Part shown: positions 28,081 to 44,347 of the stretch, piece after piece
Position numbering within the stretch: the stretch's first letter is position 1
Layout: each line of letters opens with the position of its first letter
Source of the DNA: Bacillota bacterium
GTDB taxonomy: Bacteria > Bacillota > SHA-98 > Ch115
DNA length: 64,000 nucleotides
Direction of reading: 5' to 3'
Assembly: GCA_013178415.1 (NCBI GenBank)
Contig: JABLXA010000007.1
Span: 62,001-126,000, forward strand
The notes under the pieces: generated by a model
What the model was told of the DNA's origin: nothing
The model's database searches: none
Seen by the model: only the letters and a program-made list of their open reading frames with translations
Made by a program: the position numbers and the translations under genes

Positions 28081-28156
28081 GGGCCTGTAGCTCAGTGGAT
28101 AGAGCAGCGGTTTCCTAAACCGTTGGTCGGAGGTTCGACTCCTCTCAGGCCCACCA
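28081..28156 (+). tRNA. tRNA-Arg (anticodon CCT)
   Basis: It folds as GGGCCTG acceptor, GCTC...GAGC D arm, GCGGT-TTCCTAA-ACCGT anticodon arm, GGAGG-TTCGACT-CCTCT T arm, CAGGCCC, A and an encoded CCA; 76 nt. The anticodon is CCT (reads AGG). Its 3' 45 bp are repeated exactly at 44303-44347, so this is the attachment site of the element to its right. The element's crossover leaves the tRNA intact. Confidence 0.96.
28112..28156 (+). repeat. attL (45-bp direct repeat, tRNA-Arg 3' end)
   Basis: The segment from TTCCTAAACC through CAGGCCCACCA is identical to 44303-44347 over 45 bp. It covers the anticodon loop to the CCA of tRNA-Arg(CCT). The core of such sites usually lies in the anticodon loop or T arm. 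Confidence 0.93.
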
Positions 28157-28174
28157 AAAAAGATCAGGAATCAC

Positions 28175-28200
28175 AAGGGGTTTCGACCCCTTACTTTTTT
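28175..28200 (+). terminator. Rho-independent terminator after the tRNA/attL
   Basis: AAGGGG-TTTCGA-CCCCTT followed by ACTTTTTTT. It lies inside the element, 19 bp after the tRNA CCA, so tRNA transcription now ends in element DNA. Confidence 0.75.
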
Positions 28201-28222
28201 TGTAAGATACCTCGAAAAGGCC

Positions 28223-28245
28223 TTTTGGGGATAATTTGGGGATAG
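28223..28245 (+). promoter_or_regulatory. Possible integrase arm site, left
   Basis: TTTTGGGGATAATTTGGGGATAG contains two tandem TTGGGGATA-like units. A near copy (TTGGGGATAAATTGGGGATAG) is at 44166-44186, just inside the right end. Paired repeats near both ends of an integrated element suit arm-type integrase binding sites. Confidence 0.5.
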
Positions 28246-28306
28246 TTTTTCTAAAATGGTTCCCTGCAAAACCGAAAGAACCATCATGAAACTAGAAGGG
28301 CAGGTT

Positions 28307-29548
28307 TCAGGCCTGCCCTTGCTTCTGTAGTCCTGTGTGCTTGGTGAAGAGGCTGTCGAGCTTTGCGGCGGCTGCTTGGTCTACGCTTCTTAAGGCATGG
28401 GCGTAAATATCGGCGGTGGTGCTAATGTTAGAGTGCCCCAGGCGTCTACTTACATTCTTTAAGGGGACTCCTTCTGCTATTAGCAGGGTGCCCGAAGTGT
28501 GGCGAAGATTCTTGAATGCGATATGAGGCAACCCATGGCGTTTTAAGAACTTAGAAAACCAATTACTGATAGTATCAGGGAACATCGGCCGGCCGTCCCA
28601 CGTAGTAAATATGCGGTTAGACTCTTGCCACAAGTCCCCTACTTTTAAGCGCTCCTCTGCTTGCTGCGCTTTATACTGCTTGAGTAGAGCTATTACTGAG
28701 GGTGGAATCGCTATAGCCCTGCTAGAGGTTTCCGTTTTGGGCTCCTTTGTGAAGACCCCCCGCCCTGGTAGATACTGACTGGCCTGGTGAATATCTATGG
28801 TGCTATTTTCAAAATCTACATCCTGCCATTCCAGACCCATTAGCTCTCCCCTTCTGGCTCCTGTAGCAAGGGCAAGAACGACCATGACCTTGTATTTTAG
28901 GGGCTCCGTATCAAGGGCAGCAAGCATTCGCGCGGTCTGCTCTTCGTCATAACACGGTGCCTGCGTCTTCTTGACTTTTGGCGGCTTAACCTTACTGGCC
29001 GGGTTGGAGGGGATCACCTCCCAGTCTACGGCATCCTGAAGTATAGCCGAAATCAGGCGGTGATGATGAAGGATGGTCCTTTCTGATAACCCTCCAGGTT
29101 TGCCGTCTTCCCGAACGCCGTCTTCCTGGAGATTCTTGTAGAATTCCAACAGGTGCATGGGCTTTAGCTTCTCTATGGGAATATGCCCCATAGCGGGCAG
29201 TATCCGAGAATCGAGCATTTCCTTGTATCGGAACAGCGTCTTTGGCGCGAGGTTAGTTTCCCCATAGTCCCGTATCCAACGTTCCATAAAATCTTTGAAC
29301 GTTAGCTTTGACGGCGCGATGTAGAGGCCCTTCTCTACTTCCAATGAAAATTCAGCCAAGAGCTTGTCTGCTTCCTTCCTAGCCTTGCAGCGTGTTAGCT
29401 TGTCGCAGCCTCTGCAGGACTTTTCCAGGCAGGGAGTGTCTACGCTAACCGTTTTTGTCTTCTTCTCCTGCTTGCCGTCCGGCCCCATACCGCAGGAGAC
29501 TATCAGGCGCCATGAATTCTTACCCCTCTTTTCAAGACTCCCTAGCAT
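28307..29548 (-). CDS. int: Tyrosine-recombinase integrase of the element
   Basis: A site-specific recombinase of 413 residues. It has an N-terminal AP2-like/arm-binding region with a Cys pair (CLEKSCRGCDKLTRC), a SAM-like core-binding domain (FMERWIRDYGETNLAPKTLF) and the catalytic domain. The catalytic residues are Arg in GARRGELMGLEW, Arg-His in LRHTSGTLL, His in RRLGHSNISTT and the nucleophile Tyr in ADIYAHAL. The position usually held by His in HxxR is Lys (FKNLRHT). The start at 29548 (MLGSLEKRG) has GGGGAGA upstream and overlaps the preceding gene by 17 bp. It lies next to attL and points toward it, as in most tRNA-integrated elements. Confidence 0.93.
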   Translation of the reverse strand: MLGSLEKRGKNSWRLIVSCGMGPDGKQEKKTKTVSVDTPCLEKSCRGCDKLTRCKARKEADKLLAEFSLEVEKGLYIAPSKLTFKDFMERWIRDYGETNLAPKTLFRYKEMLDSRILPAMGHIPIEKLKPMHLLEFYKNLQEDGVREDGKPGGLSERTILHHHRLISAILQDAVDWEVIPSNPASKVKPPKVKKTQAPCYDEEQTARMLAALDTEPLKYKVMVVLALATGARRGELMGLEWQDVDFENSTIDIHQASQYLPGRGVFTKEPKTETSSRAIAIPPSVIALLKQYKAQQAEERLKVGDLWQESNRIFTTWDGRPMFPDTISNWFSKFLKRHGLPHIAFKNLRHTSGTLLIAEGVPLKNVSRRLGHSNISTTADIYAHALRSVDQAAAAKLDSLFTKHTGLQKQGQA

Positions 29549-30599
29549 TAGATGTCTCCCCTTTCTTCTTTCCCGAAGGCCTGCGCGGATATTCCCTGCC
29601 TGTGATGCGTTGCCATGCGGCGCGGGCATCCCGCGAGAAAACCCGCCAATCTGAGTAAATCCACTCCGGGAATTTTCTGTTCCATATGGCCATTAACTCC
29701 CTCCAGGCGATGCCTGGATTTTCAGCAAGGAAGATGGACAATGATAAATGCTTTTCTGTCATGGGCCTGTCCCATCCGTCAAAGACATCCCTTCTAACTC
29801 TTACATACAGCTTGGCTACCTCCTGAGACGAAAGCCGCGGGTCTAACTCAAGAGTGACCCTCGCCGGTCCTATTGACGAGAAATGCAGGGTGCCTCTAGC
29901 TTTTGGGAGCGCCGGGACAACATCACAAAGAACAAATGCGACCGCCTGAGCTTCCTGCCATAAGGGAGCTATTCCCTGGAGACATGAAGCAAGATCTTTA
30001 AGGCGTCGCAATGGCCCGAAATGCGGGACAGGGACCTTATTTACCCATTTGTCTGTCCCCGGATATTCGAGGATGTCGACACTCCATTCAATCGGCCATG
30101 CTGCCTTTGCTTTCTCTGGCAGGGATAATATGCTCTGAAGGCAGCTAAAATCTCTTGAATTTTTGGGTTCTACATTCGCGGGAAGGGCGACCTTCACCCA
30201 GCGGGCCCCGCCCTGCTTTTGCGCTAATTGTTGTTTGACCCAGGTGTCAATCTCCTCGAGCTGGAGGAGTCTACCCTGTAATATCTCTTGACGAAAGGAA
30301 ATGACTTCTGGGAGCCGAGAGGCTTCAATGGCCCAAATCTGAGCCAGGGTGTCCAATCGCCTGTCAGGTGGTATCTCTTTTCGTTCCTCCTTCCTTTGGG
30401 CGTGCGCTGTGAGAGAGAAATGCGAATCGTAATGACGATATCTCTCTATAAGGTCCTCGAACTCAAACTCTCCGACGATAAATCCCTGAATAAGATCATC
30501 ATCCAATAAGGCCTGCCATATATCGTCTCTCACCTGGTGGCCAATGGCCGCGGCGAGCTTGCGGCGGATTTGTTCTTCTGTCAGTCTTTTTTGTGGCAT
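29532..30599 (-). CDS. Unknown 355-residue protein upstream of the integrase
   Basis: I do not recognise this protein. It starts MPQKRLTEEQIRRKLAAAIG (ATG at 30599, after GGGTGAT) and is rich in Trp, Arg and Glu. It has a predicted helical N-terminal half (FEFEDLIERYRHYDSHFSLT) and a C-terminal part with a helix-turn-helix-like segment around PGIAWRELMAIWNRKFPEW. No signal peptide, membrane helix or metal motif is seen. It overlaps the integrase start by 17 bp and is divergent from the XRE gene, so it is co-expressed with the integrase. It could be a cargo or defence gene, or a recombination accessory factor; nothing in the sequence decides this. Confidence 0.75.
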   Translation of the reverse strand: MPQKRLTEEQIRRKLAAAIGHQVRDDIWQALLDDDLIQGFIVGEFEFEDLIERYRHYDSHFSLTAHAQRKEERKEIPPDRRLDTLAQIWAIEASRLPEVISFRQEILQGRLLQLEEIDTWVKQQLAQKQGGARWVKVALPANVEPKNSRDFSCLQSILSLPEKAKAAWPIEWSVDILEYPGTDKWVNKVPVPHFGPLRRLKDLASCLQGIAPLWQEAQAVAFVLCDVVPALPKARGTLHFSSIGPARVTLELDPRLSSQEVAKLYVRVRRDVFDGWDRPMTEKHLSLSIFLAENPGIAWRELMAIWNRKFPEWIYSDWRVFSRDARAAWQRITGREYPRRPSGKKKGETSNARES

Positions 30600-30661
30600 T
30601 AAAATCACCCAATTACAATGATACTTTATAATTAAACCAGAGTCAAGAGGGGGTGCAAAAA

Positions 30662-30862
30662 ATGCTGCGGCTAAGAGAAGAACGGCTAAAGCGCGGATGG
30701 AGTCTAACGCAATTGACCATGCGTACGGCTATTGATACTGCTGCGCTATCGAAGATCGAACGGGGAAGGTGGCCCTGCGGTCCCGCCTGGCGACGGAGAA
30801 TCGCTGAGGCTTTCGGGATGGCCGAGGAGGAACTTTTCAAGCTGGTGGGTGAGGAGAAATGA
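30662..30862 (+). CDS. XRE-family HTH regulator
   Basis: A 66-residue helix-turn-helix protein: LREERLKRGWSLTQLTMRTA, then IDTAALSKIERGRW and RRRIAEAFGMAEEELF, the standard Cro/CI-type fold. ATG at 30662 follows AAGAGGGGG by 8 bp; a GTG at 30653 overlaps that site. It is divergent from the integrase operon and the intergenic 60 bp holds TATAAT-like sequence, so it probably controls the switch between the two operons. Its stop overlaps the next ATG (ATGA). Confidence 0.88.
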   Translation: MLRLREERLKRGWSLTQLTMRTAIDTAALSKIERGRWPCGPAWRRRIAEAFGMAEEELFKLVGEEK

Positions 30863-31077
30863 CGAGCACAATTAAACCGCCAGAAGCGGCGGAATTCCTG
30901 GGGATAAGCTACTGGAAACTGCTAGAGCTTGCGAAGGCAGGAAAGGTGCCCCATATCCGACTTCCAGGCCGGATCCTTTTCCGCCGAGAGAGTCTAGAGC
31001 GCTGGCTTGAAGAGCAAGAGCAGGCGAGCGTGCAGCGAGAATCGGCCCCTGTGGGAAAAATCAGGCAGCTAAGATAG
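30859..31077 (+). CDS. Excisionase-like HTH_17 (AlpA/Xis-type) protein
   Basis: A 72-residue winged-helix protein: PPEAAEFLGISYWKLLELAK, then AGKVPHIRLPGRILFRRESL and a terminal helix ERWLEEQEQA. This is the MerR-like HTH_17 domain of excisionases and AlpA regulators. It is coupled to the XRE gene by a 4-bp overlap. In PICI-type islands an AlpA/Xis protein sits in this place and controls excision or replication; that role here is inferred. Confidence 0.85.
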   Translation: MTSTIKPPEAAEFLGISYWKLLELAKAGKVPHIRLPGRILFRRESLERWLEEQEQASVQRESAPVGKIRQLR

Positions 31078-31114: not shown

Positions 31115-33709
31115 GTGAAGCACTTGTCTGAATCAATTGTAGAACAAAAGGCGATAGAAGACAAAGTAGCGCAGATCAAGCGAGCGCTGGATATTCTCTT
31201 CGAGCCGGGGGATGTTGTAGAGTTGCGCTGTCTCAATACCCACAAGGGCACGATTTCAGGATACTTCAATGACTTTAACAAGCTGGCGAAGGAGGCCGCG
31301 AAATTAAGCGGGAAAGTGCCTGCAGTATATGTGACTCTAAACCCGGTAAACCCGGACCTGCTGGCGAGGAGCGCAAACAAAGTAAAAGTATATGCACGCG
31401 AGACGACCGCAGACCGAGACATCATCGCCCGGCGCTGGCTGCCTTTGGACTTCGACCCGGTGAGGCCAGCTGGCATATCAAGCACTGATGCTGAACACGA
31501 AGCAGCCCTTACCCGTGCGCGAGAGGTGCGGGAATGGCTGCGCGGCCAAGGCTGGCCAGAGCCTATTCTCGCCGATAGTGGGAACGGCGCGCATCTCTTA
31601 TATCGCATAGACCTCCCTAATGACGAGGCCGCGATGCGACTCGTCAAGAACTGCATTGACGCTCTGGCATTCAAGTTTACTGATGATGCAGTGACCGTAG
31701 ACCAAAAGCCATTCAATGCGGCGCGCATATGGAAACTCTATGGGACCCTCTGCTGCAAGGGCGACAGTCTGCCGGAGAGACCTCACCGGATGGCGGCTGT
31801 CCTGGAGACCCCGGAGAAGCTGGGGCTTGCATCAAAGGAACTGCTGGCCAAACTGGCAAAAATGCTGCCCGAGGAGCCGAAGCCGGAACAAAATCAGTAT
31901 CGGACGGGGTATAAGCCCTTCGACCTGCAAAGCTGGATCCGCGAGCACGGACTGAGCGTGACGAAAGAAAAGCCTTGGAACGGCGGGACTGTCTACGAGT
32001 TGGGGGAGTGCCCGTTTAACCCTGATCATAGGCGGACGGCGCATATCATTCAATCGGCGAGCGGTGCCCTGGCATTTGGGTGCTTTCATAATAGCTGCGC
32101 GGGCAAGGACTGGCACGCACTAAGAGATCTACTGGAGCCGGGCTGGAAAGAGAAGAAATCGCGGGCGCGTAGTAGCAATAAAGCCCCAGATGCGGCGCAG
32201 GGGGATATTGCGGGGGACTTCATTCACGAAACTGACTTGGGGAATGCGCGGCGACTTGTGAGGCTACACGGCAAAGACCTGCGATACTGCCATCCATGGA
32301 AAAAATGGCTCACATGGGACGGGCGGCGGTGGAAAATTGATGATACCGCTGAGGTTGCGCGGCGGGCGCGGGATACAGTGAGAAGCATCTATATAGAAGC
32401 GCGTAATGCAGATACGAAAGAACGTGCGGCGGCGCTGGCGAAATTCGCCATACAGTGTGAAGCAAGCTACAAAATCAGCGCGATGATCGAGCTTGCCAAG
32501 AGCGAGCCGGGGATCCCAATTCTGCATGAGGAAATGGATCGTGACCCTTGGCTTCTGAATGTCAAGAATGGGACCATCGACCTCCGAACGGGTGAACTGA
32601 GACCTCATAGACGCGAAGATTTCATAACCAAGCTGGCGCCTGTCGAATATGACCCGAAAGCAGAGTGCCCCCGATGGATGCAATTCTTGCATGAGATTAT
32701 GGACGGAAATAAGAACCTGGTGGAGTTTTTACAACGTGCGGCGGGGTTTAGTCTGACGGGCGATGTTTCAGAGCATGTGTTATTCATCCTTTACGGGACA
32801 GGCCGGAACGGGAAGAGCACATTCCTGAATACCCTGCTGGCGGCCCTGGGCGACTATGCGAGAACGACTTTGCCTGACATATTGATAAAAAAGAATAATG
32901 AGCAGCATCCGACAGAGCTTGCCGACCTCTTTGGACTGCGAATGGCCATCGTGAATGAAAGCGAGGATGGCGCGCGGCTAGCGGAATCACGCGTCAAATA
33001 TCTAACCGGCGCTGACAGGATAAGCGCGCGACGAATGCGTGAGGATTCTTGGGAATTTAAGCCGACTCACAAGCTATGGATGGCTACAAACTATAAGCCA
33101 GCAATACGGGGTATGGACCCGGCCATATGGAACCGCCTTAAACTTATCCCATTCACTGTATCCTTTGCTGGACGCGAGGATAGGCAATTGCCGAAGAAAT
33201 TGCAGGAGGAGTTGCCGGGTATCTTGCGCTGGTGTGTTGAGGGATGCCTAGCATGGCAGCGCGGCGGGCTAGGAGTACCCGAAGAAGTCAAGACGGCGAC
33301 AGATAGTTATAAGGAAGAAAATGACGTGTTGGCGGCGTTTATCGGTGATTGCTGCATCGTGAATCCTCTGGCCAAAGTTAAATCGAGCGAGCTCTATCAA
33401 GCATACCTCGGATGGTGCGGGGAAAATGGAGAAAGACCTTTGAGCCAAAAAATCTTAGGGCAACGACTAGCGGAGCGTGGATTCGCAAGCCATAAGAGAA
33501 GTGTTTTGTTCTGGTTAGGTATTGGTTTGAAAAGTAACCGCGAAGAGGAAAAAAATGGTGGGAGGGAGGGGAGTGAGAACTGGTTTAACTCTAAGGGGCA
33601 GTCTCGCGTACGCAATTATACCGAAAATCACTCCCCACACTCCCCACACTCCCCACACTCTCCAAATGGAGTAAAGGATGATTCTGAACGGGAGGAAGGA
33701 AGCGTATGA
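31115..33709 (+). CDS. Primase-helicase (AEP primase + D5/P4-type SF3 helicase)
   Basis: An 864-residue replication protein. The N-terminal ~230 residues look like an archaeo-eukaryotic primase/PrimPol: LPLDFDPVRPAG gives the DxD metal pair and SGNGAHLLYRID the sxH motif. A zinc-type segment (CPFNPDHR ... CFHNSCAGKDWH) follows. The D5_N and SF3 helicase have Walker A GTGRNGKST (~residue 562), Walker B RMAIVNESED and the motif C/sensor segment WMATNYKPAIRGMDPAIWNR. The start may be GTG 31115 or TTG 31124. Near the 3' end a 9-bp unit CTCCCCACA is repeated about four times, encoding SPH repeats. Autonomous replication of the excised element is the expected role. Confidence 0.92.
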   Translation: MKHLSESIVEQKAIEDKVAQIKRALDILFEPGDVVELRCLNTHKGTISGYFNDFNKLAKEAAKLSGKVPAVYVTLNPVNPDLLARSANKVKVYARETTADRDIIARRWLPLDFDPVRPAGISSTDAEHEAALTRAREVREWLRGQGWPEPILADSGNGAHLLYRIDLPNDEAAMRLVKNCIDALAFKFTDDAVTVDQKPFNAARIWKLYGTLCCKGDSLPERPHRMAAVLETPEKLGLASKELLAKLAKMLPEEPKPEQNQYRTGYKPFDLQSWIREHGLSVTKEKPWNGGTVYELGECPFNPDHRRTAHIIQSASGALAFGCFHNSCAGKDWHALRDLLEPGWKEKKSRARSSNKAPDAAQGDIAGDFIHETDLGNARRLVRLHGKDLRYCHPWKKWLTWDGRRWKIDDTAEVARRARDTVRSIYIEARNADTKERAAALAKFAIQCEASYKISAMIELAKSEPGIPILHEEMDRDPWLLNVKNGTIDLRTGELRPHRREDFITKLAPVEYDPKAECPRWMQFLHEIMDGNKNLVEFLQRAAGFSLTGDVSEHVLFILYGTGRNGKSTFLNTLLAALGDYARTTLPDILIKKNNEQHPTELADLFGLRMAIVNESEDGARLAESRVKYLTGADRISARRMREDSWEFKPTHKLWMATNYKPAIRGMDPAIWNRLKLIPFTVSFAGREDRQLPKKLQEELPGILRWCVEGCLAWQRGGLGVPEEVKTATDSYKEENDVLAAFIGDCCIVNPLAKVKSSELYQAYLGWCGENGERPLSQKILGQRLAERGFASHKRSVLFWLGIGLKSNREEEKNGGREGSENWFNSKGQSRVRNYTENHSPHSPHSPHSPNGVKDDSEREEGSV

Positions 33710-34020
33710 GATCAGACGTCCTTCTGAGGAGGCTGCAATCGCTGGACATAGAACTGACCCCCTGTGGTGATGAACTCCATTTCAATGCGCCAAAGGGGGC
33801 CCTCACTCCAGAATTGCTGCAAGAGATGAAGACGCATAAGCAGGAACTCTTAGCCATGCTGCGCTATGGGATACCTACGGCGCGTCTCTACCCCTACCTG
33901 GGGAAGGCAGTGAAGGTTCCTTCCGGGGAGGGGATCCTGTGGCAAGTATTTGCGGATCGTGTTGGGGTTGTTATAGGCGGTAAGGTGAGGTTTTACAAGC
34001 AAGAGGAGATAAATCAATGA
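33706..34020 (+). CDS. Small protein with TubC_N-like domain
   Basis: 104 residues, overlapping the primase-helicase stop by 4 bp. The first 55 residues resemble the TubC N-terminal docking-type domain also found next to phage primases: VLLRRLQSLDIELTPCGDEL, HFNAPKGALTPELLQEMKTH and KQELLAMLRYG. The C-terminal half (VKVPSGEGILWQVFADRVGV) is a small beta-rich part. The likely role is an accessory to the primase, by position. Confidence 0.65.
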   Translation: MRSDVLLRRLQSLDIELTPCGDELHFNAPKGALTPELLQEMKTHKQELLAMLRYGIPTARLYPYLGKAVKVPSGEGILWQVFADRVGVVIGGKVRFYKQEEINQ

Positions 34021-34409: not shown

Positions 34410-34641
34410 GCGGGCCCGTGGGGCAATTAGACAGACGCATCATGTAGAGGAGCCGTCAAGCGGCAAGCATCCCGCCTGGTGCAATGAGTGCGCCTGGCGG
34501 ACGCACAATGTTGGTGGCTGTGCGGTGTTCAATGACTGTCGGGACCCCTGGCTGGAGAATGGAGTCTGTGAAGCATGGGCGGACGAGGAGATGAGGCAGG
34601 AAATTGAGCAAGCTATCGCCGACTATGAAGCAAGCCATTGA
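34369..34641 (+). CDS. Small Cys-rich protein
   Basis: 90 residues with five Cys in AWCNECAWRTHNVGGC, FNDC and NGVC, likely a zinc-binding module. It has an acidic helical tail (DEEMRQEIEQAIADYEASH). It overlaps the previous gene by 41 bp and the next by 17-38 bp. No family assigned. Confidence 0.6.
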   Translation: MAITQKLMDAPAYKRARGAIRQTHHVEEPSSGKHPAWCNECAWRTHNVGGCAVFNDCRDPWLENGVCEAWADEEMRQEIEQAIADYEASH

Positions 34642-34993
34642 ACGAATCTTTACAAGATATCGGCTGAACCAGGCGAGGGCGGCGCTGCTAATGTCCCGGC
34701 TGGAGCGCACAGGCGGGAGCATCATCCTCAGAATCCCCAAAGGTGAGAGTAAGTATGAGGACGGACTTGCAGACCTTGCGGACATAAGCCGGGAGCTGGA
34801 CGCATACGAGGCGGTATTCATGGCGCTGAACCGGATCGAGAGGATATTCGTCCGATTGAGGTATGACGAAGGGTTTTCCATAGCTGGAGTGGCGCGGGAG
34901 TTGGGGATAAGCGAACGGAGCGTATACAGGCTGAGGGATCAGGTATTTGGCAAAGCGGCGGCAGTATTGGGATGGCAGGAAAATGTCAGTTGA
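34625..34993 (+). CDS. Sigma-70 region 4-like phage regulator (DUF1492/ArpU-type)
   Basis: About 122 residues. It has an N-terminal helical region, a middle EYDAYE-like part (SRELDAYEAVFMALNRIE) and a C-terminal helix-turn-helix: VRLRYDEGFSIAGVARELGI, then SERSVYRLRDQVFGKA. This layout is that of the late-transcription activators placed just before terminase modules. The ATG at 34625 or TTG at 34604 could be the start. It probably switches on the packaging and capsid operon that begins after the terminator at 35041. Confidence 0.72.
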   Translation: MKQAIERIFTRYRLNQARAALLMSRLERTGGSIILRIPKGESKYEDGLADLADISRELDAYEAVFMALNRIERIFVRLRYDEGFSIAGVARELGISERSVYRLRDQVFGKAAAVLGWQENVS

Positions 34994-35040
34994 TTTAGCG
35001 AAAACCCTATGATACGGTTAAGATGGAAAATTAAGCTATG

Positions 35041-35068
35041 GGGGCCCGTCGAAAGGCGGGCTCTTTCA
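35041..35068 (+). terminator. Terminator between replication and packaging modules
   Basis: GGGGGCCCGTCGAAAGGCGGGCTCTTT forms a GCCCG/CGGGC stem followed by a short T-rich tail. It separates the early genes from the HNH-terminase block. Confidence 0.6.
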
Positions 35069-35082
35069 TTTGGGGTGATACC

Positions 35083-35433
35083 ATGCCGATGAAGCCATTA
35101 GGCCCTTGCCGGTATCCTGGGTGCCCTAATTTGCAGATACCTGGCGGGCATGGCTACTGTGAAGAGCATGTCAGGGAATACCGGCGCGAGGATGCAAGAC
35201 GCAGGGGAAGCGCAAGGCAACGAGGCTACACCAGGCGCTATGAGAAAGCACGAATGTGGGCCCTCAAACGGCAGCCCCTATGCGTGCTGTGCAAGGCTGA
35301 AGGCCGGCTGACTGCGGCGACTGTCACTCACCATATCAAGCCATTGGCAGAAGGTGGGAGCAATAGCGCAGATAACCTTCTTCCCTTATGTGAGGCCTGC
35401 CATGAACGCATGCACTCTAAGGAGGGGGGATAA
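35083..35433 (+). CDS. HNH endonuclease of the packaging module
   Basis: 116 residues: a zinc-type N-terminus (CRYPGCPNLQIPGGHGYCEEH) and the HNH core CVLCKAEGR, VTHHIKPLAEGGSNS, ADNLLPLCEACHERMHS. HNH proteins beside terminase are needed for DNA packaging in HK97-type phages, where they stimulate terminase cleavage. ATG at 35083 follows TTGGGGTGATA. It is positioned before terS, as in HK97-like phages and capsid-forming islands. Confidence 0.9.
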   Translation: MPMKPLGPCRYPGCPNLQIPGGHGYCEEHVREYRREDARRRGSARQRGYTRRYEKARMWALKRQPLCVLCKAEGRLTAATVTHHIKPLAEGGSNSADNLLPLCEACHERMHSKEGG

Positions 35434-35549: not shown

Positions 35550-36014
35550 ATGAGCAGGCGGAAACCGACGGCCCTAAAGGTGCTGGAAGGCAACCCTGGG
35601 CGGCGTCCCTTGCCAAAAGGGGAGCCGAAGCCAAAGCCGGTGGCTCCTGGATGCCCTGACTGGCTGCCAACAGCAGCTGTGCGATATTGGAATGAGCTTG
35701 CGCCAAAGCTGGAGAAATTGGGTTTGCTTACCGAGATAGACGGCCAAGGCCTTGCAGACTACTGCTTATGCCTGGCCAGGCTGGAGGCAGCGGAAAAGGA
35801 TGTCGAAGCCCGAGGTCTGCTGGTGCCTGGCGACAGGGGATTAGTCAAGAACCCGGCATGTCAGCTGGCGCGAGAATATCGGGCAGCGGCGCAGAAGTGG
35901 GCGGCGAGATTCGGACTAGATCCTGCATCCCGAGCCGGGCTGGACCTCGCCAAAGAAAATGCCGAAGACGAGCTGGAAGAATTCCTGAAGGCAGGCAGAG
36001 ATAGTGGCGTTTAG
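35550..36014 (+). CDS. terS: Terminase small subunit, P27 family
   Basis: 154 residues. It opens with the family hallmark PTALKVLEGNPGRRPLPKGE and continues PKPVAPGCPDWLPTAAVRYW. It recognises the packaging site on element DNA and recruits the large subunit. The start follows GCGGAGGGAGG. It overlaps terL by 11 bp. A dedicated small subunit lets the element direct packaging into its own capsids. Confidence 0.9.
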   Translation: MSRRKPTALKVLEGNPGRRPLPKGEPKPKPVAPGCPDWLPTAAVRYWNELAPKLEKLGLLTEIDGQGLADYCLCLARLEAAEKDVEARGLLVPGDRGLVKNPACQLAREYRAAAQKWAARFGLDPASRAGLDLAKENAEDELEEFLKAGRDSGV

Positions 36015-37542
36015 TGAGGCGCGGGCGGCCCATGCCGTGAGGTTTATAAATCTCCTCAAGCATACCAAGGGCAAATGGGCTGGCCGGCCATTCGACCTTC
36101 GGCCATGGCAGGAGAAGGTCATTCGCGACGTCTTTGGCACTTTGAGGCCTGACGGGACGCGGCGATACCGGACGACATATATAGAGATACCCCGCAAGAA
36201 CGGGAAAACGAGCCTGGCTGCGGCTATAGCGCTGTATATGCTTGTGGCCGATGGTGAGAAGGGCGCGGAGATATATTCGGCGGCGTGTGACAGGGATCAG
36301 GCGGCGTTGACATTCGACATAGCGCGGGAGATGGTGCTGCAGGCGCCGGCGTTAAAGAAGATCCTGAAGGTGGTGGATTCGCAGAAGCGGATAGTTTACC
36401 CGGCCATGGGGAGCTTTTACCGGGTGATAGCGGCTGACGCGGACTCCTCGCATGGTTTTAACGCACATGCCATTATAGCGGATGAATTGCATGCCTGGCC
36501 GAACCGCAGGCTGTGGGACGTGCTGACGACTTCGACAGGGGCCCGGACGCAGCCCCTGATATTCACGATAACTACGGCGGGGTATGACCGAAACAGCATT
36601 TGCTATGAGCAGCACGACTACGCAAAGAAGATCCTTGACGGCGTGATAGAGGACCCTAGCTTCTATGCCGTGATTTACGCGGCTGATGAGGGCGATGACT
36701 GGGAGAGCGAAGAAACCTGGCGCAAGGCGAACCCGGCCCTGGGCGACTTTCGGAGCCTGGAGGAGATGCGCGAGCTATACCGGCGGGCGAAGGAGCAGCC
36801 AGGTTTGCAGAACACGTTCCGCAGGCTATATCTCAATCAATGGACTTCGCAGGAGACACGGTGGCTAGATATGGCGGCATGGGACGCATGCGGGGGCCCC
36901 GTGGAGGCCGAGAAGCTGAAAGGCCGGGACTGTTACGCCGGCATCGACTTATCGACTACCACAGACTTAACGGCTGTGGTGTTGGCCTTCCCGATGGAGG
37001 ATGGGACGGTGCGGGTGATACCGCACTTCTTTATTCCTGGGGATACGGCGCAGAAGAAGGAAGAACGCGATCGCGTGCCATATTTGACATGGGCAAAACA
37101 GGGATATGTACACATGACCCCTGGGAATTGCATTGATTATTCGTATGTCGAGGCGAAGATCAAGGAATTGGCCAAGGAATACAGCGTGGTGGAATGGGCA
37201 TATGACCGCTGGAATGCTGACATGTTGATCCAGCGGCTGCAGGAGGATGGCGCCAAAATGATACCGGTAGGGATGGGTTACGCAAGCCTTAGTGCTCCGA
37301 CGAAACACTTGGAGGCCCTGATTATGAACCGGCAGCTGGTGCATGGCGGGCATCCTGTGCTGAGGTGGTGCGCTGACAATGTGATGGTGGAGCAGGACCC
37401 GGCGGGCAATATCAAACCGTCGAAGGCCAAAAGCACACAAAGGATTGATGGGATCATGGCTTTAGTGCTGGCTATAAGCCGTCTGATGTTGAGGCCGCAG
37501 AAGCGCAACCCTTACGAAGAAAGGGGCGTGATCGTGTTGTGA
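36004..37542 (+). CDS. terL: Terminase large subunit
   Basis: 512 residues, the usual size. The ATPase domain has Walker A IPRKNGKTSLAAA (~residue 65) and Walker B AIIADELHAW. The nuclease domain has GIDLSTTTDLTAVVL, with catalytic Asp residues, and AYDRWNAD and RIDGIMALVLA near the C-terminus. The start is a GTG inside the end of terS. It pumps DNA into the prohead and cuts it at the end. The frame is intact, which argues against decay of this module. Confidence 0.93.
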   Translation: MAFSEARAAHAVRFINLLKHTKGKWAGRPFDLRPWQEKVIRDVFGTLRPDGTRRYRTTYIEIPRKNGKTSLAAAIALYMLVADGEKGAEIYSAACDRDQAALTFDIAREMVLQAPALKKILKVVDSQKRIVYPAMGSFYRVIAADADSSHGFNAHAIIADELHAWPNRRLWDVLTTSTGARTQPLIFTITTAGYDRNSICYEQHDYAKKILDGVIEDPSFYAVIYAADEGDDWESEETWRKANPALGDFRSLEEMRELYRRAKEQPGLQNTFRRLYLNQWTSQETRWLDMAAWDACGGPVEAEKLKGRDCYAGIDLSTTTDLTAVVLAFPMEDGTVRVIPHFFIPGDTAQKKEERDRVPYLTWAKQGYVHMTPGNCIDYSYVEAKIKELAKEYSVVEWAYDRWNADMLIQRLQEDGAKMIPVGMGYASLSAPTKHLEALIMNRQLVHGGHPVLRWCADNVMVEQDPAGNIKPSKAKSTQRIDGIMALVLAISRLMLRPQKRNPYEERGVIVL

Positions 37543-37859
37543 GACATTTATTCAATAACACATTCACCCAGAAGCGATTCACGACCTACTACAACGAGTT
37601 TAACGAGCCTATAAGCGAATGGGTGACCATAGGGACCATCCAGGGGCGGCTGAGGATAGCAAATATGCAGGATCGTTTTGTGGCGGCATCCCTGAACGTA
37701 ACGCTGGAGTATATCTTCTACTGCGGCCCGGAGGTGGACATACGCCAGGGCGACAGGATCGAGCTGGGAGACACCAAGGTAGAAATCCTGGCGGTAAAAG
37801 ACCCGAGTTTTGCACGACACCATCTTGAATGCGAGGGCAAGACCGATACGCGGCCATAA
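37539..37859 (+). CDS. Head closure / head-tail adaptor protein (SPP1 gp16-like)
   Basis: 106 residues with a small beta-barrel pattern: FTQKRFTTYYNEFNEPISEW, VTIGTIQGRLRIANMQD and VDIRQGDRIELGDTKVEILA. This is the head-closure protein family that seals the portal and gives the tail docking surface. It starts with GTG overlapping the terL stop. Finding it without tail genes is consistent with docking to helper tails. Confidence 0.78.
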   Translation: MRHLFNNTFTQKRFTTYYNEFNEPISEWVTIGTIQGRLRIANMQDRFVAASLNVTLEYIFYCGPEVDIRQGDRIELGDTKVEILAVKDPSFARHHLECEGKTDTRP

Positions 37860-37868: not shown

Positions 37869-39779
37869 ATGATGAGCTTTTGGAGAAGGCTATTCGGCAA
37901 AGAGGAAAAACGAGCGTTCGGACTAAGGGACCCCGACGGCTGGGTGCCTCTTATGGGCTGGGGCACAAATGCCGGCATAACGGTAACCCCTGAGACAGCG
38001 CTGACACATCCGGCTGTCCTGGGCGCTGTGCGGCTAGTGGCGGAGCTTACGGCGTCCCTGCCCCTGGTAGTCTATGAGCGAACAGACAGCGGACGCAGGC
38101 GGGCTGAGGATCATCCAATATACGCATTGATGCACGAGGTCCCTAATCCGTTAATGACGCCTTTCACATTCAAGGAAACGGTTGCTACCAGCTTACTTCT
38201 ATATGGCAATGCTTATGTGCTGGTGCAGTGGGGCGATACCGGTATACCAGTGGCGTTGTGGCCATTACACCCATCAAAGGTGCAGGTGGAAATGCCGGCA
38301 GGGGGCCCTATCATCTACCAGGTGACTGGCGCTAACGGGCAGCGGACCCCATACAGCCCTGACGACATTCTGCACGTGCCCTTGCTAGCGCTGGACGGGA
38401 TCATAGGCCGGTCTCCCGTGCAGTTGGCGCGGGAAGCAATAGGCGCGGCGCTGGCTGCCGAAGAACATGCTTCGGGCTACTTCGCGAACGCGGCAAGGCC
38501 TTCTGGGGTGCTAAAGACTGCCGGCATCCTCACCCCCGAGGCTGCCAAGAGGCTGCGGGAGAGCTGGCAGGCTGCTTATGGACACGGCAAGGCCGGGACC
38601 GCGGTGTTGGAGGACGGGATCGAGTTTCAGCCAATAAGCGGGAACGCGCAAGAATCGCAGCTAATCGAATCCCGGCAATTCGCTATGAGGACCATAGCGG
38701 CGGCTTTAAGGATCCCTCCGCACATGCTGGACCCGACGGCGAGGGGCACTTACGCGAATGTCGAGACGCAAAGCCTGGAATTCCTGACGTTTAGCTTGCA
38801 GCCATTCCTGACGCGGATCGAAGAGGCCTTCACATTGAAGTTGTTCCTGCCAGGAGAACGGAACCGTTACTTTGTGGAATTCCTGACGGACGGGCTGTTA
38901 AGGACTGATACGCGAACACGGTACATGGCTTACCAGATAGCCATTCAGAGTGGATTCATGACCGCAAATGAGGCAAGGCAGAAGGAGAACCTACCACCAT
39001 TGCCGGAACCCCCGCAGAATAACCCAGTGCGGGCTATAGGGGTCCTTGAGACGCGAGCCGATAAGAAGCAGATAATCCTGGCGAGACATAAGCCGCAGAT
39101 CGAGGCGATAGCGCGTCGGGTGATAGCCAGGGAGCGGGAAGACATACTGGCCATAGTGGGAAAAGCACTTGGACGGCGGGATATAGGGCAGGCTGAGACC
39201 GCAATAGCTGAGTATTACAAGCAGTCTGGCTGGATAGGGAATGAGTTTACTCCTGCATTCCGGGAGCTTGCCGCAGAGAGCAATAAAGAGGCCGCCAGTG
39301 AAGTCAATGCTTCGGCATGGAAAGATGATGAGTTAGATAATTACATCAAAGGCCATGCTGAGGCATATGCGGCTAAGCACGCCGGAATAAGCCTGGCGAC
39401 AATTCAGCCGGCGCTTCGGCTAGGGGCTGAGGCTGCCATATTGGAGGCCCTGGAGAGCATCCTATCTGACATGGAAGCTACGCGGCCCGGCAAGATCGCG
39501 GCGCTGGAGGTTGCCAATATCGGCAATGATGCAGCGCTGGAGACCTACCGAAAGGCTGGTATTACAAGGATAACCTGGCAGGCCAATGCCAGCGCGTGCG
39601 AATTCTGCAAGAGGCTGAGCGGAAAGACGGTAGGCATAGGTGAACCTTTCGTGAATGTGGGCGAATCCATCCCTGGCCCGGCGGGGGACATGAGCAGGAA
39701 GCTGACGGCAAGGCAGCCAAGGATAAGACCGCCGATTCATCTTGGCTGTGAATGCACTTTAATTCCAGTTAGGGACTAG
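37869..39779 (+). CDS. HK97-type portal protein fused to a C-terminal head-morphogenesis-like domain
   Basis: 636 residues, longer than a normal portal of ~400. Residues 1-400 match HK97 portals: GTNAGITVTPETALTHPAVL, NPLMTPFTFKETVATSLLLY, LHPSKVQVEM, IAAALRIPPHMLDPTARGTY and ANVETQSLEFLTF. The following ~230 residues are helical and end in a minor-capsid/Mu F-like segment with Cys and His (ANASACEFCKRLSGKTVGIG, then PPIHLGCECTLIPV). Usually these are two genes. The fusion would build the morphogenesis protein into the portal at one copy per subunit. ATG at 37869 follows GGGGGCGGT. Confidence 0.86.
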   Translation: MMSFWRRLFGKEEKRAFGLRDPDGWVPLMGWGTNAGITVTPETALTHPAVLGAVRLVAELTASLPLVVYERTDSGRRRAEDHPIYALMHEVPNPLMTPFTFKETVATSLLLYGNAYVLVQWGDTGIPVALWPLHPSKVQVEMPAGGPIIYQVTGANGQRTPYSPDDILHVPLLALDGIIGRSPVQLAREAIGAALAAEEHASGYFANAARPSGVLKTAGILTPEAAKRLRESWQAAYGHGKAGTAVLEDGIEFQPISGNAQESQLIESRQFAMRTIAAALRIPPHMLDPTARGTYANVETQSLEFLTFSLQPFLTRIEEAFTLKLFLPGERNRYFVEFLTDGLLRTDTRTRYMAYQIAIQSGFMTANEARQKENLPPLPEPPQNNPVRAIGVLETRADKKQIILARHKPQIEAIARRVIAREREDILAIVGKALGRRDIGQAETAIAEYYKQSGWIGNEFTPAFRELAAESNKEAASEVNASAWKDDELDNYIKGHAEAYAAKHAGISLATIQPALRLGAEAAILEALESILSDMEATRPGKIAALEVANIGNDAALETYRKAGITRITWQANASACEFCKRLSGKTVGIGEPFVNVGESIPGPAGDMSRKLTARQPRIRPPIHLGCECTLIPVRD

Positions 39780-39789
39780 GAGGGAGAGC

Positions 39790-41460
39790 ATGAAGAGACG
39801 GCTCTTGGAGACCAGGGGCAGCGAACCGGAGGAGCTGGAGCTGCGGAACTTTGAGATGCGGCTGGCCGGCGATGATAATCAACCCGTGCTGACCGGCTAT
39901 GCTGCGGTATTCAACCAAGATAGCACGGGATTGTTCTTCTCTGAGCGTATCAGGCCAGGCGCATTCAAGCGGAGCCTCGAAGCGAAGCAGGATGTCCTGG
40001 CGCTGGTAGACCACGACCGAGCAAAAGTGATAGGCCGGGTGAGCAATGGGACCCTATCCCTGCGCGAGGATGATAAAGGCCTTCTGGTGGAAATACGGCC
40101 AAACATGGAGACCACCTTTGGCCGTGACGTAGTGGCCAATGTCAAACGGCGGGACATTACGAACATGTCGTTCGGCTTTATCGCCAAAAAGGACGCATGG
40201 ACCCCAGACAAGACCGGCAAGAATGTCGCCCGTGAGATCATCGAGGCCGATCTGCGGGAAGTATCCATAGTTAGTATGCCGGCATACGCCGGAACATCTA
40301 TACAGAAACGTGAGGAGGAATTGGACATGACGAAGAAAGAGCGGGAACTCCGCCAGAAGCTGGCGGGACTGAAGGAGCGGCATAGTGCCATACTGGGAAA
40401 GGACAATCTGACCGATGAGGAGCGCGCGGAGCAGCTATCCCTGGCCAAGGAGATCCGGAGCATAGAGGCGCAGATCGCGGAGATAGCGAAGGAGGCCCCT
40501 GCTGAGGCCCCTGCGGCTGCCCCTGTTGCTGTGGTCCCTGCGCCTGCTTCTGATGAGCAGCGGGCATTTAACGTGTATCTTCGTACGGGTGAGACGCGGG
40601 CCCTGAACGTCGGGACGGATGCTGGCGGCGGCGTGTTGGCCCCCCAGGGATTCATAGCTGAGGTGCTCCGTGCCAGACAGGAAACGGCTGTTATGCGGCG
40701 CGTGGCCCGTGTCATTGGCCCGGTAAATTCGGCGCAGGTGGAGATACCGCGGAGCCTTACCGGTGTTACCGCGACCTGGCTTGCCGAGAATGCGGCTATC
40801 GTGCCTGGAGATCCTAGCTTCGACAAGCTGACCTTCACGCTTCACAAGATGGGGGCCCTGACCCAAGTTAGCAATGAGCTCCTGGCCGACAGCGGAATAA
40901 ATGTGGAGGCCCTGCTTTCGCAGTTATTCGGCGAGGCCTTAGCGAAACTGGAGGATGCAGCGTTTTTCAATGGCAATGTCGCAGGACAGCCAAAGGGAAT
41001 CCTGCAGGATGCCAACATTCAGACCGTAGCGGCTGCAGCTGGTGCAGCGGTGAGTGTGGACGACATACTGAACCTCTATGATGCAGTGCCCCCGCAATAT
41101 CAGGGGACCGCTGTATGGGTGATGAATCCTGCTACTATGAGTCTACTTCGCAAGCTGAAGGATACTGCTGGTAGACTGATGCTGACCTCCGACTTGACCG
41201 GTCCGGCGCCAATAACCCTGCTTGGCAGGCCGGTATACCTGAGCTCCAACATGCCGGCGGTGGCGCTCAATGCGAAGAGCATCCTCTTCGGGGACCTTCG
41301 CGACGCCTATATAATCGTGGACCATGCGAATCTAGGCGTGCAGCGGAGCGCAGACCGGTACTTCGAGGCTGACCAGGTGGCATTCCGGGTGATAGCCCGT
41401 GTAGACGGCCAGGTGGCGCTGCCGGAAGCTGTGCGCATCCTCAAACAACCTGCGGCGTAA
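39790..41460 (+). CDS. Prohead protease-major capsid protein fusion (HK97 fold)
   Basis: 556 residues. The first ~185 are a U35-type prohead protease: LTGYAAVFNQDS, ALVDHDRAKVIGRVSNGTL (catalytic His), DITNMSFGFIAKKDAW (Ser) and REVSIVSMPAYAGTSI. A helical scaffold-like delta segment follows with heptad character (MTKKERELRQKLAGLKERHS) and an Ala/Pro linker. The capsid protein has TDAGGGVLAPQGFIAEVLRA, VEIPRSLTGVTATWLAENAA and VAFRVIARVDGQVALPEAVR. Protease and capsid genes are normally separate. An internal ATG at 40327 (MTKKEREL) after GAGGAGG could also give a stand-alone capsid protein. Confidence 0.9.
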   Translation: MKRRLLETRGSEPEELELRNFEMRLAGDDNQPVLTGYAAVFNQDSTGLFFSERIRPGAFKRSLEAKQDVLALVDHDRAKVIGRVSNGTLSLREDDKGLLVEIRPNMETTFGRDVVANVKRRDITNMSFGFIAKKDAWTPDKTGKNVAREIIEADLREVSIVSMPAYAGTSIQKREEELDMTKKERELRQKLAGLKERHSAILGKDNLTDEERAEQLSLAKEIRSIEAQIAEIAKEAPAEAPAAAPVAVVPAPASDEQRAFNVYLRTGETRALNVGTDAGGGVLAPQGFIAEVLRARQETAVMRRVARVIGPVNSAQVEIPRSLTGVTATWLAENAAIVPGDPSFDKLTFTLHKMGALTQVSNELLADSGINVEALLSQLFGEALAKLEDAAFFNGNVAGQPKGILQDANIQTVAAAAGAAVSVDDILNLYDAVPPQYQGTAVWVMNPATMSLLRKLKDTAGRLMLTSDLTGPAPITLLGRPVYLSSNMPAVALNAKSILFGDLRDAYIIVDHANLGVQRSADRYFEADQVAFRVIARVDGQVALPEAVRILKQPAA

Positions 41461-41527: not shown

Positions 41528-42064
41528 ATGTATGAGCTGGTTTCCAACAGCGAGGCATTGACCTACCTGCAGCTACCGGCGACGGTAGATCTAACACAGT
41601 TGATCACCAACATATCTGCCCGGATCGAAACTTATACAGGCCGGTGGTTTATAACCCGGCCCGTGGTGGATGTCCTTGACTCCGGCGGCGGGGGCATGCT
41701 GTTCCTGAGCCGGTATCCCGTGCAGGGGACCCCTACGGTGACGGACTTAACCGCGAATACGCAGGTGACAGACTTCCTGACATACAGCGGCAGCGGGATG
41801 CTGTATCGCGAGGGGGGCTGGGAGGCCGGCAGGCAGCGGTATCGGATAGAGTATCAGGCCGGTATATGCGCTGATGTGGCCACAGTGCCCGCGGATGTGA
41901 AGCAGGCGGCGCTGGAGTGGATCAAGGCCCGCTATGACCGGCGGGACCCGGCAATAAGGCGAGAGCAGTTAGGCGATTACTCCTATAGTGCTGATGAGCC
42001 GGACGGTATCCCCCCTGGCGTCAAGGCGGCGCTGTCCTTATGGTGTGTGCCGAGGGGGCATTGA
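41528..42064 (+). CDS. Head-tail connector (gp6-like)
   Basis: 178 residues: YELVSNSEALTYLQLPATVD, LTQLITNISARIETYTGRWF and the C-terminal VKQAALEWIKARYDRRDPAI match connector proteins of the gp6/YqbG type, which form a ring under the portal. It starts after AAGGGGGCG. With the head-closure protein it completes the neck, but nothing beyond the neck is encoded. Confidence 0.82.
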   Translation: MYELVSNSEALTYLQLPATVDLTQLITNISARIETYTGRWFITRPVVDVLDSGGGGMLFLSRYPVQGTPTVTDLTANTQVTDFLTYSGSGMLYREGGWEAGRQRYRIEYQAGICADVATVPADVKQAALEWIKARYDRRDPAIRREQLGDYSYSADEPDGIPPGVKAALSLWCVPRGH

Positions 42065-42065
42065 T

Positions 42066-42947
42066 ATGCTCTCTGAACAACAAAAGGCGCTTATCTTGAA
42101 CCATCTGGGGTTAGCAAGGTTTATGGCCCGAAAATTCCGGAATAACGAATATCTGAGTTACGATGACCTGCTTGGAATAGCTAATCTTGCCTTGGTGCGT
42201 GCAGCGGCGGCATTTCCGGAATCCGATGCCTGCAGAAGTGGCGTCCCTTTCAAGACTTTTGCCGCAAAGTATATGAGGATTGCGCTGCTGACAGCCCTTC
42301 GTGAGTCATTGCCGGTGCATGTGCCACAGGAGGCGAACCTACGGGCAGGCATTTTCAACCAGGCGGAGGCGGCGCGGATTGCGCGGGGGGACGACCGCAT
42401 GAGTGATGCGGAGCTTGCCGCGACCCTGGGCTGGACGGAGGATCAGGCGCGAAGAATACGGCGCCTGGTGCCTGCGCTGCACGCTGGTATGTCTTTGGAT
42501 GTGCCGGTTGAAGGCCCTGATGGTGACGAGGAACCTTTTGGTAATTTCTTTGAAGATCCTGAAGAAGACGTGGAGGCGGAGGTTTTGGACAGGCTAGCCC
42601 GCGAAGAAGAGCTTGAACGCCTGCGAGGGATCATTGCCGGGCTGCCGCATTCGATGAAATTGGCCATATCACTGCGTTTCGGTCTGCATACTCCCAAATG
42701 TGAGCGAATCACCATAGCGGAGGTGCTGAGCGTCTTTATCGGCATGGGCTGTGTTACATGCACGGCGTTAAAGAGGGTGAGGGAACATGCGGGCGTCGCG
42801 GGTGCAGGAGAGAGCAGAGGATATTCTTTGGACGATTGTTATGCTCGAAAGGGCGCTGCGGCAAAGGCGAAAGAGCGCCGGGGCGCGGACCTCTGGCGGC
42901 GTATTGCAAGCGGGGAAGAGGAAATCCCGATTTTATGCGAGCAGTGA
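42066..42947 (+). CDS. Sigma-70-like transcription factor
   Basis: 293 residues. Region 2 is LGLARFMARKFRNNEYLSYD, DLLGIANLALVRAAAAFPES and FKTFAAKYMRIALLTALRES. Region 3 is MSDAELAATLGWTEDQARRI and region 4 is AISLRFGLHTPKCERITIAE with a helix-turn-helix into LKRVREHAG. It probably directs transcription of element genes or of helper late genes. ATG at 42066 is one base after the previous stop. The last ~55 codons overlap the next reading frame, and homology ends near 42780, so the tail of this protein may be of little consequence. Confidence 0.8.
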   Translation: MLSEQQKALILNHLGLARFMARKFRNNEYLSYDDLLGIANLALVRAAAAFPESDACRSGVPFKTFAAKYMRIALLTALRESLPVHVPQEANLRAGIFNQAEAARIARGDDRMSDAELAATLGWTEDQARRIRRLVPALHAGMSLDVPVEGPDGDEEPFGNFFEDPEEDVEAEVLDRLAREEELERLRGIIAGLPHSMKLAISLRFGLHTPKCERITIAEVLSVFIGMGCVTCTALKRVREHAGVAGAGESRGYSLDDCYARKGAAAKAKERRGADLWRRIASGEEEIPILCEQ

Positions 42948-43206
42948 GCAAGAACGGTATGTTATAGCGAATGAGCGGGACTTTAGGAAGGCTAAGGCGT
43001 TGATGGATATTCTCCGGCCAATTGAGCTAACCTGGCTGGAGGCAGTAGTGTTGCTCCATTATTATTTTCGCAACCTGACCTTAGAGGATACCGCGACTGC
43101 GGCAGGGGCGCATATTTTTGAGATCATGAAGGCCCGCGACTCATTGCTTACCAAGGTAGCTAGAGCGGCAGGCTATATAGGCGAAGATCAGGCGCTGAAT
43201 CAATAG
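42787..43206 (+). CDS. Hypothetical HTH-like protein overlapping the sigma-like gene
   Basis: 139 residues from ATG 42787, overlapping the previous gene by 161 bp. The C-terminal 75 residues look real: RPIELTWLEAVVLLHYYFRN, then LTLEDTATAAGAHIFEIMKA, a helix-turn-helix-like segment similar to sigma region 4. The true start may lie later, near or after 42948. Alternatively a frameshift has split one longer sigma-like protein. The gene ends just before a terminator. Confidence 0.55.
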   Translation: MRASRVQERAEDILWTIVMLERALRQRRKSAGARTSGGVLQAGKRKSRFYASSEQERYVIANERDFRKAKALMDILRPIELTWLEAVVLLHYYFRNLTLEDTATAAGAHIFEIMKARDSLLTKVARAAGYIGEDQALNQ

Positions 43207-43212
43207 CGCATA

Positions 43213-43248
43213 GCCCGCTGGGGACTCTACATCCCCTGCGGGCTTTTT
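43213..43248 (+). terminator. Rho-independent terminator of the capsid operon
   Basis: AGCCCGC...GCGGGCT stem with an inner GGGG/CCCC pairing, followed by TTTTT. It ends the long packaging-capsid transcript immediately before the next promoter. Confidence 0.85.
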
Positions 43249-43249
43249 G

Positions 43250-43324
43250 TTGACTTCTCATACTAGTATGCTATACTGATACTAGTAATCTTACTGCTAT
43301 TAGTGCAGAATACTAGTATGGAGG
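43250..43324 (+). promoter_or_regulatory. Promoter with three ATACTAGTAT operator repeats
   Basis: TTGACT (43250-43255) and TATACT (43272-43277) are 16 bp apart. The palindrome ATACTAGTAT occurs at 43260-43269 inside the spacer, as ATACTAGTAA at 43279-43288 just after the -10, and at 43310-43319 touching the GGAGG ribosome site. The first gene downstream encodes a ribbon-helix-helix-type protein. Short palindromic half-site arrays like this are typical operators for such proteins, so autorepression is likely. Confidence 0.78.
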
Positions 43325-43331
43325 CGCAACC

Positions 43332-43628
43332 ATGAAGAAGCGGGTAATGCTTTATCTCACCGATGATGACTCCCGCAGGTTATCCTCTCTGGCGAAAAAA
43401 GCGGGCATGTCTATGAATGCCCTGGTGGTATCCCTTCTATGGCAGGCCGATATGCCAAGACGAAAGGCAGGAGAAGCCCTGGAATATGTCTGCAAGCGGT
43501 GCGGACGAAAGATCTTGGCTGATGTCGCCGATGTGATGCCTCCCGATGAATGCCCTTACCCTGCGTGTGGCGGCGTGCTGGCTCCCACAGGACGGGGACT
43601 TACCCTCATAGTAGGGCGTATCGAATAG
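43332..43628 (+). CDS. Ribbon-helix-helix-like regulator with zinc ribbon
   Basis: 98 residues. The N-terminal strand-helix-helix MKKRVMLYLTDDDSRRLSSL, AKKAGMSMNALVVSLL fits an RHH DNA-binding domain. A C-terminal zinc-ribbon-like part has CKRCGRKI and CPYPACGG. It lies under a strong promoter containing three palindromic sites, so it probably represses itself. The ATG is 7 bp after GGAGG. It is paired with a metalloprotease gene 16 bp downstream. Confidence 0.75.
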   Translation: MKKRVMLYLTDDDSRRLSSLAKKAGMSMNALVVSLLWQADMPRRKAGEALEYVCKRCGRKILADVADVMPPDECPYPACGGVLAPTGRGLTLIVGRIE

Positions 43629-43644
43629 AAAGGGGAATGGGAGA

Positions 43645-44034
43645 ATGGAATACAGGCGCAGGAATGCCAGGGAACTATATCGGTGCTTTCTTGACTTAGC
43701 GAAGGCCCGAGGTATCAGAGTGGTATTATATTCTCTGCCGAGCCCCATAGATGGGTTTTATCTGGGTGACAGAAATAGATGGCCAAATGGGTTAATAGTG
43801 CTGGAAAAGAAATTGAAGATTCGAGAGCGGGTATGGGTGCTTGCCCATGAGCTCGGACATTATTTCATGGACAAAGTGCTAAATATCGAAATTGGCAATA
43901 TTTTTCTAAAGAGCGTGACTGACGAGGATAAGAAGCGGCGGGTTCAGATAGAGGCTGAGGCTGATGATTTTGCGCGGTGGCTTATTACTGTTTATGGGGG
44001 CGATGAGGCCTACTTCCCTCCAAAAAGGTCCTAA
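43645..44034 (+). CDS. ImmA/IrrE-type metallopeptidase
   Basis: 129 residues with the zinc motif HELGHYFMD (HEXXH) and a downstream EAEADDFARWLI glutamate segment, the ImmA/IrrE (COG2856) signature. In mobile elements such proteases cleave a cognate repressor to trigger excision. Here the partner could be the RHH protein just upstream or the XRE protein at 30662. Its start follows AAAGGGGAATGGGAGA. It is the last element gene before attR. Confidence 0.88.
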   Translation: MEYRRRNARELYRCFLDLAKARGIRVVLYSLPSPIDGFYLGDRNRWPNGLIVLEKKLKIRERVWVLAHELGHYFMDKVLNIEIGNIFLKSVTDEDKKRRVQIEAEADDFARWLITVYGGDEAYFPPKRS

Positions 44035-44061
44035 GGCGGGTGGATTTCGAGGCGATACGAA

Positions 44062-44092
44062 GAGGCCCCGGCAAACGCCGGGGCCTTCTTTT
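44062..44092 (+). terminator. Rho-independent terminator after the ImmA-type gene
   Basis: GGCCCCGGC-AAAC-GCCGGGGCC followed by TTCTTTT; strong stem of 9-10 bp. Confidence 0.88.
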
Positions 44093-44165
44093 GCGTTTGG
44101 GATCCGGATTCTCCGCTACGCTGTTTTCATTTTCATCTACGGTTATGGCGACCGCAGGTATGGCA

Positions 44166-44186
44166 TTGGGGATAAATTGGGGATAG
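44166..44186 (+). promoter_or_regulatory. Possible integrase arm site, right
   Basis: TTGGGGATAAATTGGGGATAG, the near copy of 28223-28245, lies 117 bp inside attR. Confidence 0.5.
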
Positions 44187-44302
44187 TCTATTCAAAACTA
44201 CCCCCAAAAACGACCTATGGAAACCTATGGCAGAGAGAAAAAATCTGGCAATACCAAGCATTTCAGCATGATAACCAATGGAACAAAACGGTAGGTTTCG
44301 CA

Positions 44303-44347
44303 TTCCTAAACCGTTGGTCGGAGGTTCGACTCCTCTCAGGCCCACCA
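44303..44347 (+). repeat. attR (45-bp direct repeat of tRNA-Arg 3' end)
   Basis: Exact copy of 28112-28156. The tRNA 5' half is absent, so this is the right-hand attachment site of the element and not a tRNA gene. Confidence 0.93.

Follow-up and report, generated by a model that had tools for sequence, protein, structure and literature searches.

Capsid-forming phage-inducible chromosomal islands (cf-PICIs), of which EcCIEDL933 and its relatives are the reference cases (Alqurainy et al., 2023, via PMC10690885, PMC10803314 and PMC11389934), encode capsid, protease, portal, connectors, terminases and an HNH protein, and need a helper for tails only (PMC10690885). The mean size of these islands is 14 kb (PMC10803314), trees of their capsids show three radiations (PMC11389934), and putative tape-measure (tmp) genes have been reported in some of them (PMC12987554). 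The same functions, carried by integrative genomes of 15-16 kb, are found in two records of cf-PICI-like layout, Escherichia phage vB_KppS-Ant (LR881103.1, 16.5 kb, an induced prophage), which has an annotated tape measure, and Pasteurella phage Pmp8 (OR544139.1, 15.3 kb), which has an annotated tail terminator. Encapsidation genes are also encoded by the Streptomyces satellites MulchRoom and MiniFlayer, which are missing key replication genes, end in direct terminal repeats and parasitise virulent phages (PMC10690885).

The element described here lies in a 64,000-nucleotide stretch of a Bacillota genome (the window, to whose numbering all coordinates refer unless another contig is named). It matches the cf-PICIs in its integrase with att sites at a defined locus, its AlpA/Xis-type regulator and primase, its complete own set of head and packaging genes (HNH, terS, terL, portal, protease, capsid, connectors), the absence of a recognisable tail module or lysis gene, and a size near 14 kb within a common range of about 14-16 kb. 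It departs from them in the order HNH-terS-terL-HCP-portal-protease/capsid-connector, the fusion of protease and capsid, a Mu-F-like domain on the portal, sigma-like genes after the connector, and a host lineage that is absent from the list in PMC10803314. The vB_KppS-Ant and Pmp8 genomes, in contrast, have separate protease and capsid genes, a capsid-first order and only distant sequence similarity to the element, which, unlike MulchRoom and MiniFlayer, has its own primase-helicase and integrates. We propose, with a probability of roughly 0.8, that the element is a capsid-forming phage satellite of the cf-PICI type from a Desulfotomaculum-related Gram-positive lineage, a label that reflects its nearest portal relative (from Desulfotomaculaceae, Bacillota) and a further relative of the same phylum.

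Borders and gene content of the element

Two direct repeats of 45 bp, 100% identical (28112-28156 and 44303-44347; spacing 16,191), delimit an element of 16,191 bp; they are the perfect att repeats around about 16.2 kb that the preliminary description had reported, and an exact match over 45 bp is not attributable to chance. The left repeat, attL, is the 3′ 45 bp of a tRNA-Arg(CCT) gene (28081..28156, plus strand), and attR (44303..44347, plus strand), defined from the repeat and from comparison with an empty site, is a perfect copy of that tRNA 3′ end. In the genome used for this comparison (G003, same order), tRNA-Arg directly abuts sequence that is found in the window only past the right repeat, with 53/58 identities across the junction and 36/43 in a second stretch further along; this is the arrangement expected of an empty attB and supports the borders. 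The element has a G+C content of 0.547, compared with 0.50-0.52 in the flanks, and a plasmid search found no plasmid that carries it. An ORF that spans the right att (43964-44401) is probably not a gene. Outside the element, the stretch 44825-44943 of the window consists of a truncated sequence resembling a tRNA 3′ end followed by one resembling the region downstream of tRNA-Arg in G003, and may have been left behind by a previous integration.

The integrase and a 358-aa gene (orf2) are on the minus strand, and all that follows forms a single rightward array that ends with an ImmA-like peptidase gene and is closed, 3′ of this gene, by a strong terminator-like hairpin of 11 pairs (44062-44087). 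This hairpin alone stands out, promoter- and terminator-like sites in the element being otherwise no more frequent than in shuffles. The tyrosine integrase (28307..29551, minus; PF00589, 8e-28; phrog_1) adjoins attL. Between it and the xis gene lies orf2 (29532..30608, minus), an addition to the gene list of the preliminary description; this conserved protein has homologues at 25-55% identity and no match in Pfam, PHROGs, phage records or PDB, and its AlphaFold model, built from three rows, is poor (mean pLDDT 46.6). In several islands or genomes of the same phylum, orf2 homologues adjoin integrase or primase modules, an arrangement that suggests a function in integration, excision or the control of lysogeny.

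The rightward array opens with a small Xre-type HTH protein of 69 aa (30653..30862, plus), recognised from its sequence and a weak PADLOC HTH match, which is a possible repressor. It is followed by an AlpA/excisionase-like HTH_17 protein (30859..31077, plus; PF12728, 2.9e-12; phrog_66), a D5-type primase-helicase (31115..33709, plus; D5_N PF08706, 4.8e-41; DUF5906 PF19263; Pox_D5 PF03288) and a small TubC_N-like protein (33706..34020, plus; PF18563, 5.7e-15) with a relative in the IMG/VR contig L008. No clear large Stl-type repressor is present among the ORFs of the element; the only candidates for an Stl-like repressor divergent from alpA are the Xre-type protein, encoded in the same direction, and the divergent orf2. 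Directly 5′ of the packaging genes is a regulator resembling sigma region 4 and late activators (34604..34993, plus; PF08281, 1e-7; phrog_36, phrog_248).

The packaging and head genes, all on the plus strand, encode an HNH endonuclease (35038..35433; PF01844, phrog_144), the terminase small subunit (35550..36014; Terminase_4 PF05119, 1.7e-21; phrog_83), the terminase large subunit with ATPase and nuclease domains (36004..37542; PF03354, PF20441, phrog_9), a head completion protein (Phage_HCP, 37539..37859; PF05521, 3.5e-6), a portal (37869..39779; PF04860, 8e-109) whose weak C-terminal Mu-F-like domain (Phage_Mu_F, PF04233) is likewise new to the gene list, an S78 prohead protease fused to an HK97-type major capsid protein (39790..41460; PF04586, PF05065) and a head-tail adaptor or connector (41528..42064; phrog_442, 1.7e-25). 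Downstream, also on the plus strand, are a sigma-70-like protein with region 2 (42063..42947; phrog_351, 8e-22; 33% identical to the product of the L008 gene after the capsid), a short sigma-region-4-like protein (42787..43206; phrog_3512, weak; L008 relative at 30%), a ribbon-helix-helix-like protein with a zinc-ribbon-like tail (43332..43628; weak PF05534/PF21983) and the ImmA/IrrE-type M78 peptidase (43645..44034; PF06114, 5e-7). The sigma-like, ribbon-helix-helix and ImmA proteins might conceivably sense a helper, as the preliminary description had suggested.

Thus, the earlier statement that the integrase, excisionase-like, primase-helicase, HNH, terS, terL, head closure, portal, protease-capsid and connector genes are intact holds by Pfam and PHROGs matches, all of these genes being open. 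The accompanying statement that tail and lysis genes are missing also stands: no tail, holin or endolysin gene was recognised with the same two libraries in the main ORFs of the element. These libraries do detect tail genes in two positive controls, a full phage (L184) and a relative of the element (L005). Several small ORFs match no family, so the absence covers recognisable tail genes only.

Relatives of the element and their tail genes

With the capsid as query, one contig of an assembled genome (L005, Desulfotomaculum copahuensis) and three close IMG/VR contigs (L006, L007 and L008) were recovered, and the portal query adds G367, from another family of the same phylum. The portals of these five relatives are 52-69% identical to that of the window element. 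Scans of IMG/VR proteins with the primase and orf2 as queries gave no matches.

The chromosomal relative in G367 (contig C22) has, in this order, integrase, primase, helicase, HNH, terS, terL, portal and capsid genes, with chromosomal-type genes about 2 kb further on and no recognisable tail gene. L006 (1-13293) has neither a recognisable tail gene nor an integrase, and its exact terminal overlap would close it into a 13.3-kb circle; the circle is likely though imperfect, since the overlap is only 20 bp and the junction breaks the reading frame of orf2, and L006 is possibly an episomal satellite. In L008, sigma-like genes follow the capsid, as they follow the connector in the window element, and there is no recognisable tail gene; neither L008 nor G367 has a recognisable connector. 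L007, at 4.9 kb, is too short for judging tail content. L005 adjoins tRNA-Ala, with an HTH gene and an integrase after a chaperone-like gene. Its connector is flanked by a tape-measure gene (TMP_3, 622 aa; L005:9588-11456), which follows the capsid, and by a small tail-chaperone-like gene (L005:12000-12254) on the far side; there is no other tail gene, but these two mean that the lineage does not lack tail genes altogether. Given that putative tmp genes are reported in some cf-PICIs, the tape measure of L005 does not place it outside the kind. The relatives differ in their replication modules and, where visible, in their insertion sites.

In a full phage with a TerL 62% identical to that of the element (L184, a 33-kb contig), the connector is followed by neck and tail genes, exactly where the elements have none, which indicates that the tools see tails where they are present. 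The preliminary description had read the locus as a candidate cf-PICI and had held that relatives with a complete set of tail genes in this position would mark it as a deletion derivative. The relatives are tail-less or nearly so (L006, L008 and L292 are without tails, and L005 has two tail-type genes only), and the cf-PICI reading is thereby supported.

A further island of the same class (L301:7577-15826, in G016:C11) contains a lone HK97 capsid gene together with a D5 primase (55%), an orf2 homologue (54%) and an integrase; no terminase or portal was seen in it.

Phylogeny and selection on the head genes

A tree of 60 portal rows separates the six elements from 54 phage portals by a branch supported at 100/100, and their clade has a long stem. 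A second, quick portal tree again unites the six (100 SH-aLRT), apart from the two Gram-negative cf-PICI-like records of 15-16 kb that made up its cf-PICI comparison. A TerL tree, also by a quick method, agrees for the three elements present in it (99 SH-aLRT). Proteins are 50-77% identical between elements while synonymous sites are near saturation: fourfold sites differ by 0.59-0.76 and second codon positions by 0.15-0.35, and 0 genes have an internal stop. Such near-saturated synonymous change in genes with conserved proteins indicates that the head genes are under selection and that the element is not a fresh deletion.

These observations bear on the view that the element is a defective prophage, that is, the decaying remnant of a complete siphovirus whose tail and lysis genes were lost recently. 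Its head genes are indeed of the ordinary HK97 type, its terL is 50-62% identical to those of full phages, and L005 retains two tail-type genes. Nevertheless, no recognisable tail is present in at least three relatives whose capsids and portals are 55-69% identical, the portal clade stands apart from phages, and perfect att repeats enclose a compact operon with a terminator-like end. Furthermore, selection has kept the open head set through a long separation, unlike the situation in a decaying prophage. We consider this origin very improbable.

A candidate helper in the same genome

The sole other candidate virion module of the genome is a siphovirus-like prophage (G000:C12, about 38.8-65 kb; L094 and L095, 38800-66000) with genes for a terminase, a portal, a Mu-F protein, head closure, a 2124-aa tape measure, a distal tail protein and a tail-fibre-like protein. 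Across the genome, the Phage_capsid and Phage_portal families match nothing but the genes of the element itself, so the prophage head is of a different type. The head-closure protein of the prophage has no sequence similarity to that of the element, a point against taking the tail compatibility of the two for granted; judged by its gene content, this prophage could be the tail donor. The genome has no contractile tail sheath, and two weak TMP_3 matches elsewhere fall below the cut-off. In an E. coli strain carrying EcCIEDL933, native prophages mobilised this cf-PICI at no detectable frequency (PMC11389934).

Should the element have no specific helper tail, it would release DNA-filled heads as head-only particles, as a domesticated or transfer-agent-like system or with tails acquired outside the cell; the lack of tail genes in the element and the persistence of related head sets in several lineages fit such a system. 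Against it, the tail-joining connector and the head completion gene have been kept, at 69% and 63% identity to L005, respectively, and the element has its own TerS and HNH for packaging plus an integrase, as in a mobile element; this reading is therefore very improbable. Least probable of all is an anti-phage island in which head proteins poison invading phages and mobility is incidental, for although satellites often interfere with their helpers, the ImmA-like gene weakly matches PADLOC capP and the G016 island carries a lone capsid, PADLOC finds no defence system beyond the peptidase and HTH look-alikes, and the packaging set is complete.

Discussion

Tail-less or nearly tail-less relatives, one of them in a different bacterial family, make a satellite that borrows the tails of other phages the most likely explanation of the locus. 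The life cycle predicted from gene content, with induction, small particles and tail theft, would run as follows. Entry or induction of a helper phage would lift repression, Xis and Int would excise the element, and its own primase-helicase would replicate it. The late-activator-like and sigma-like proteins may then turn on the packaging and head genes, upon which HNH, TerS and TerL would load the DNA of the element, probably by a cos mechanism, into small heads that it encodes itself. Finally, the head completion and connector proteins would couple these heads to helper tails, and the helper would lyse the cell.

More tentatively, we suggest that these elements may represent an independent radiation of tail-stealing satellites that arose in Desulfotomaculum-related hosts from the heads of Gram-positive phages, with late genes run by their own sigma-like factors. 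In this speculative scenario, which we rate as doubtful, the tape-measure gene can be gained or lost, and in some members the satellite itself would dictate how long the captured tails are.

Satellites of the cf-PICI type are already known in other bacteria, and the present element would extend them to a lineage absent from the list in PMC10803314, in which the heads form a distinct clade. The 16-kb island shares its genome with a siphovirus-like prophage, and the two offer a defined natural pair for tests. Moreover, the existence of relatives with and without a tape-measure gene opens tail borrowing to comparison.
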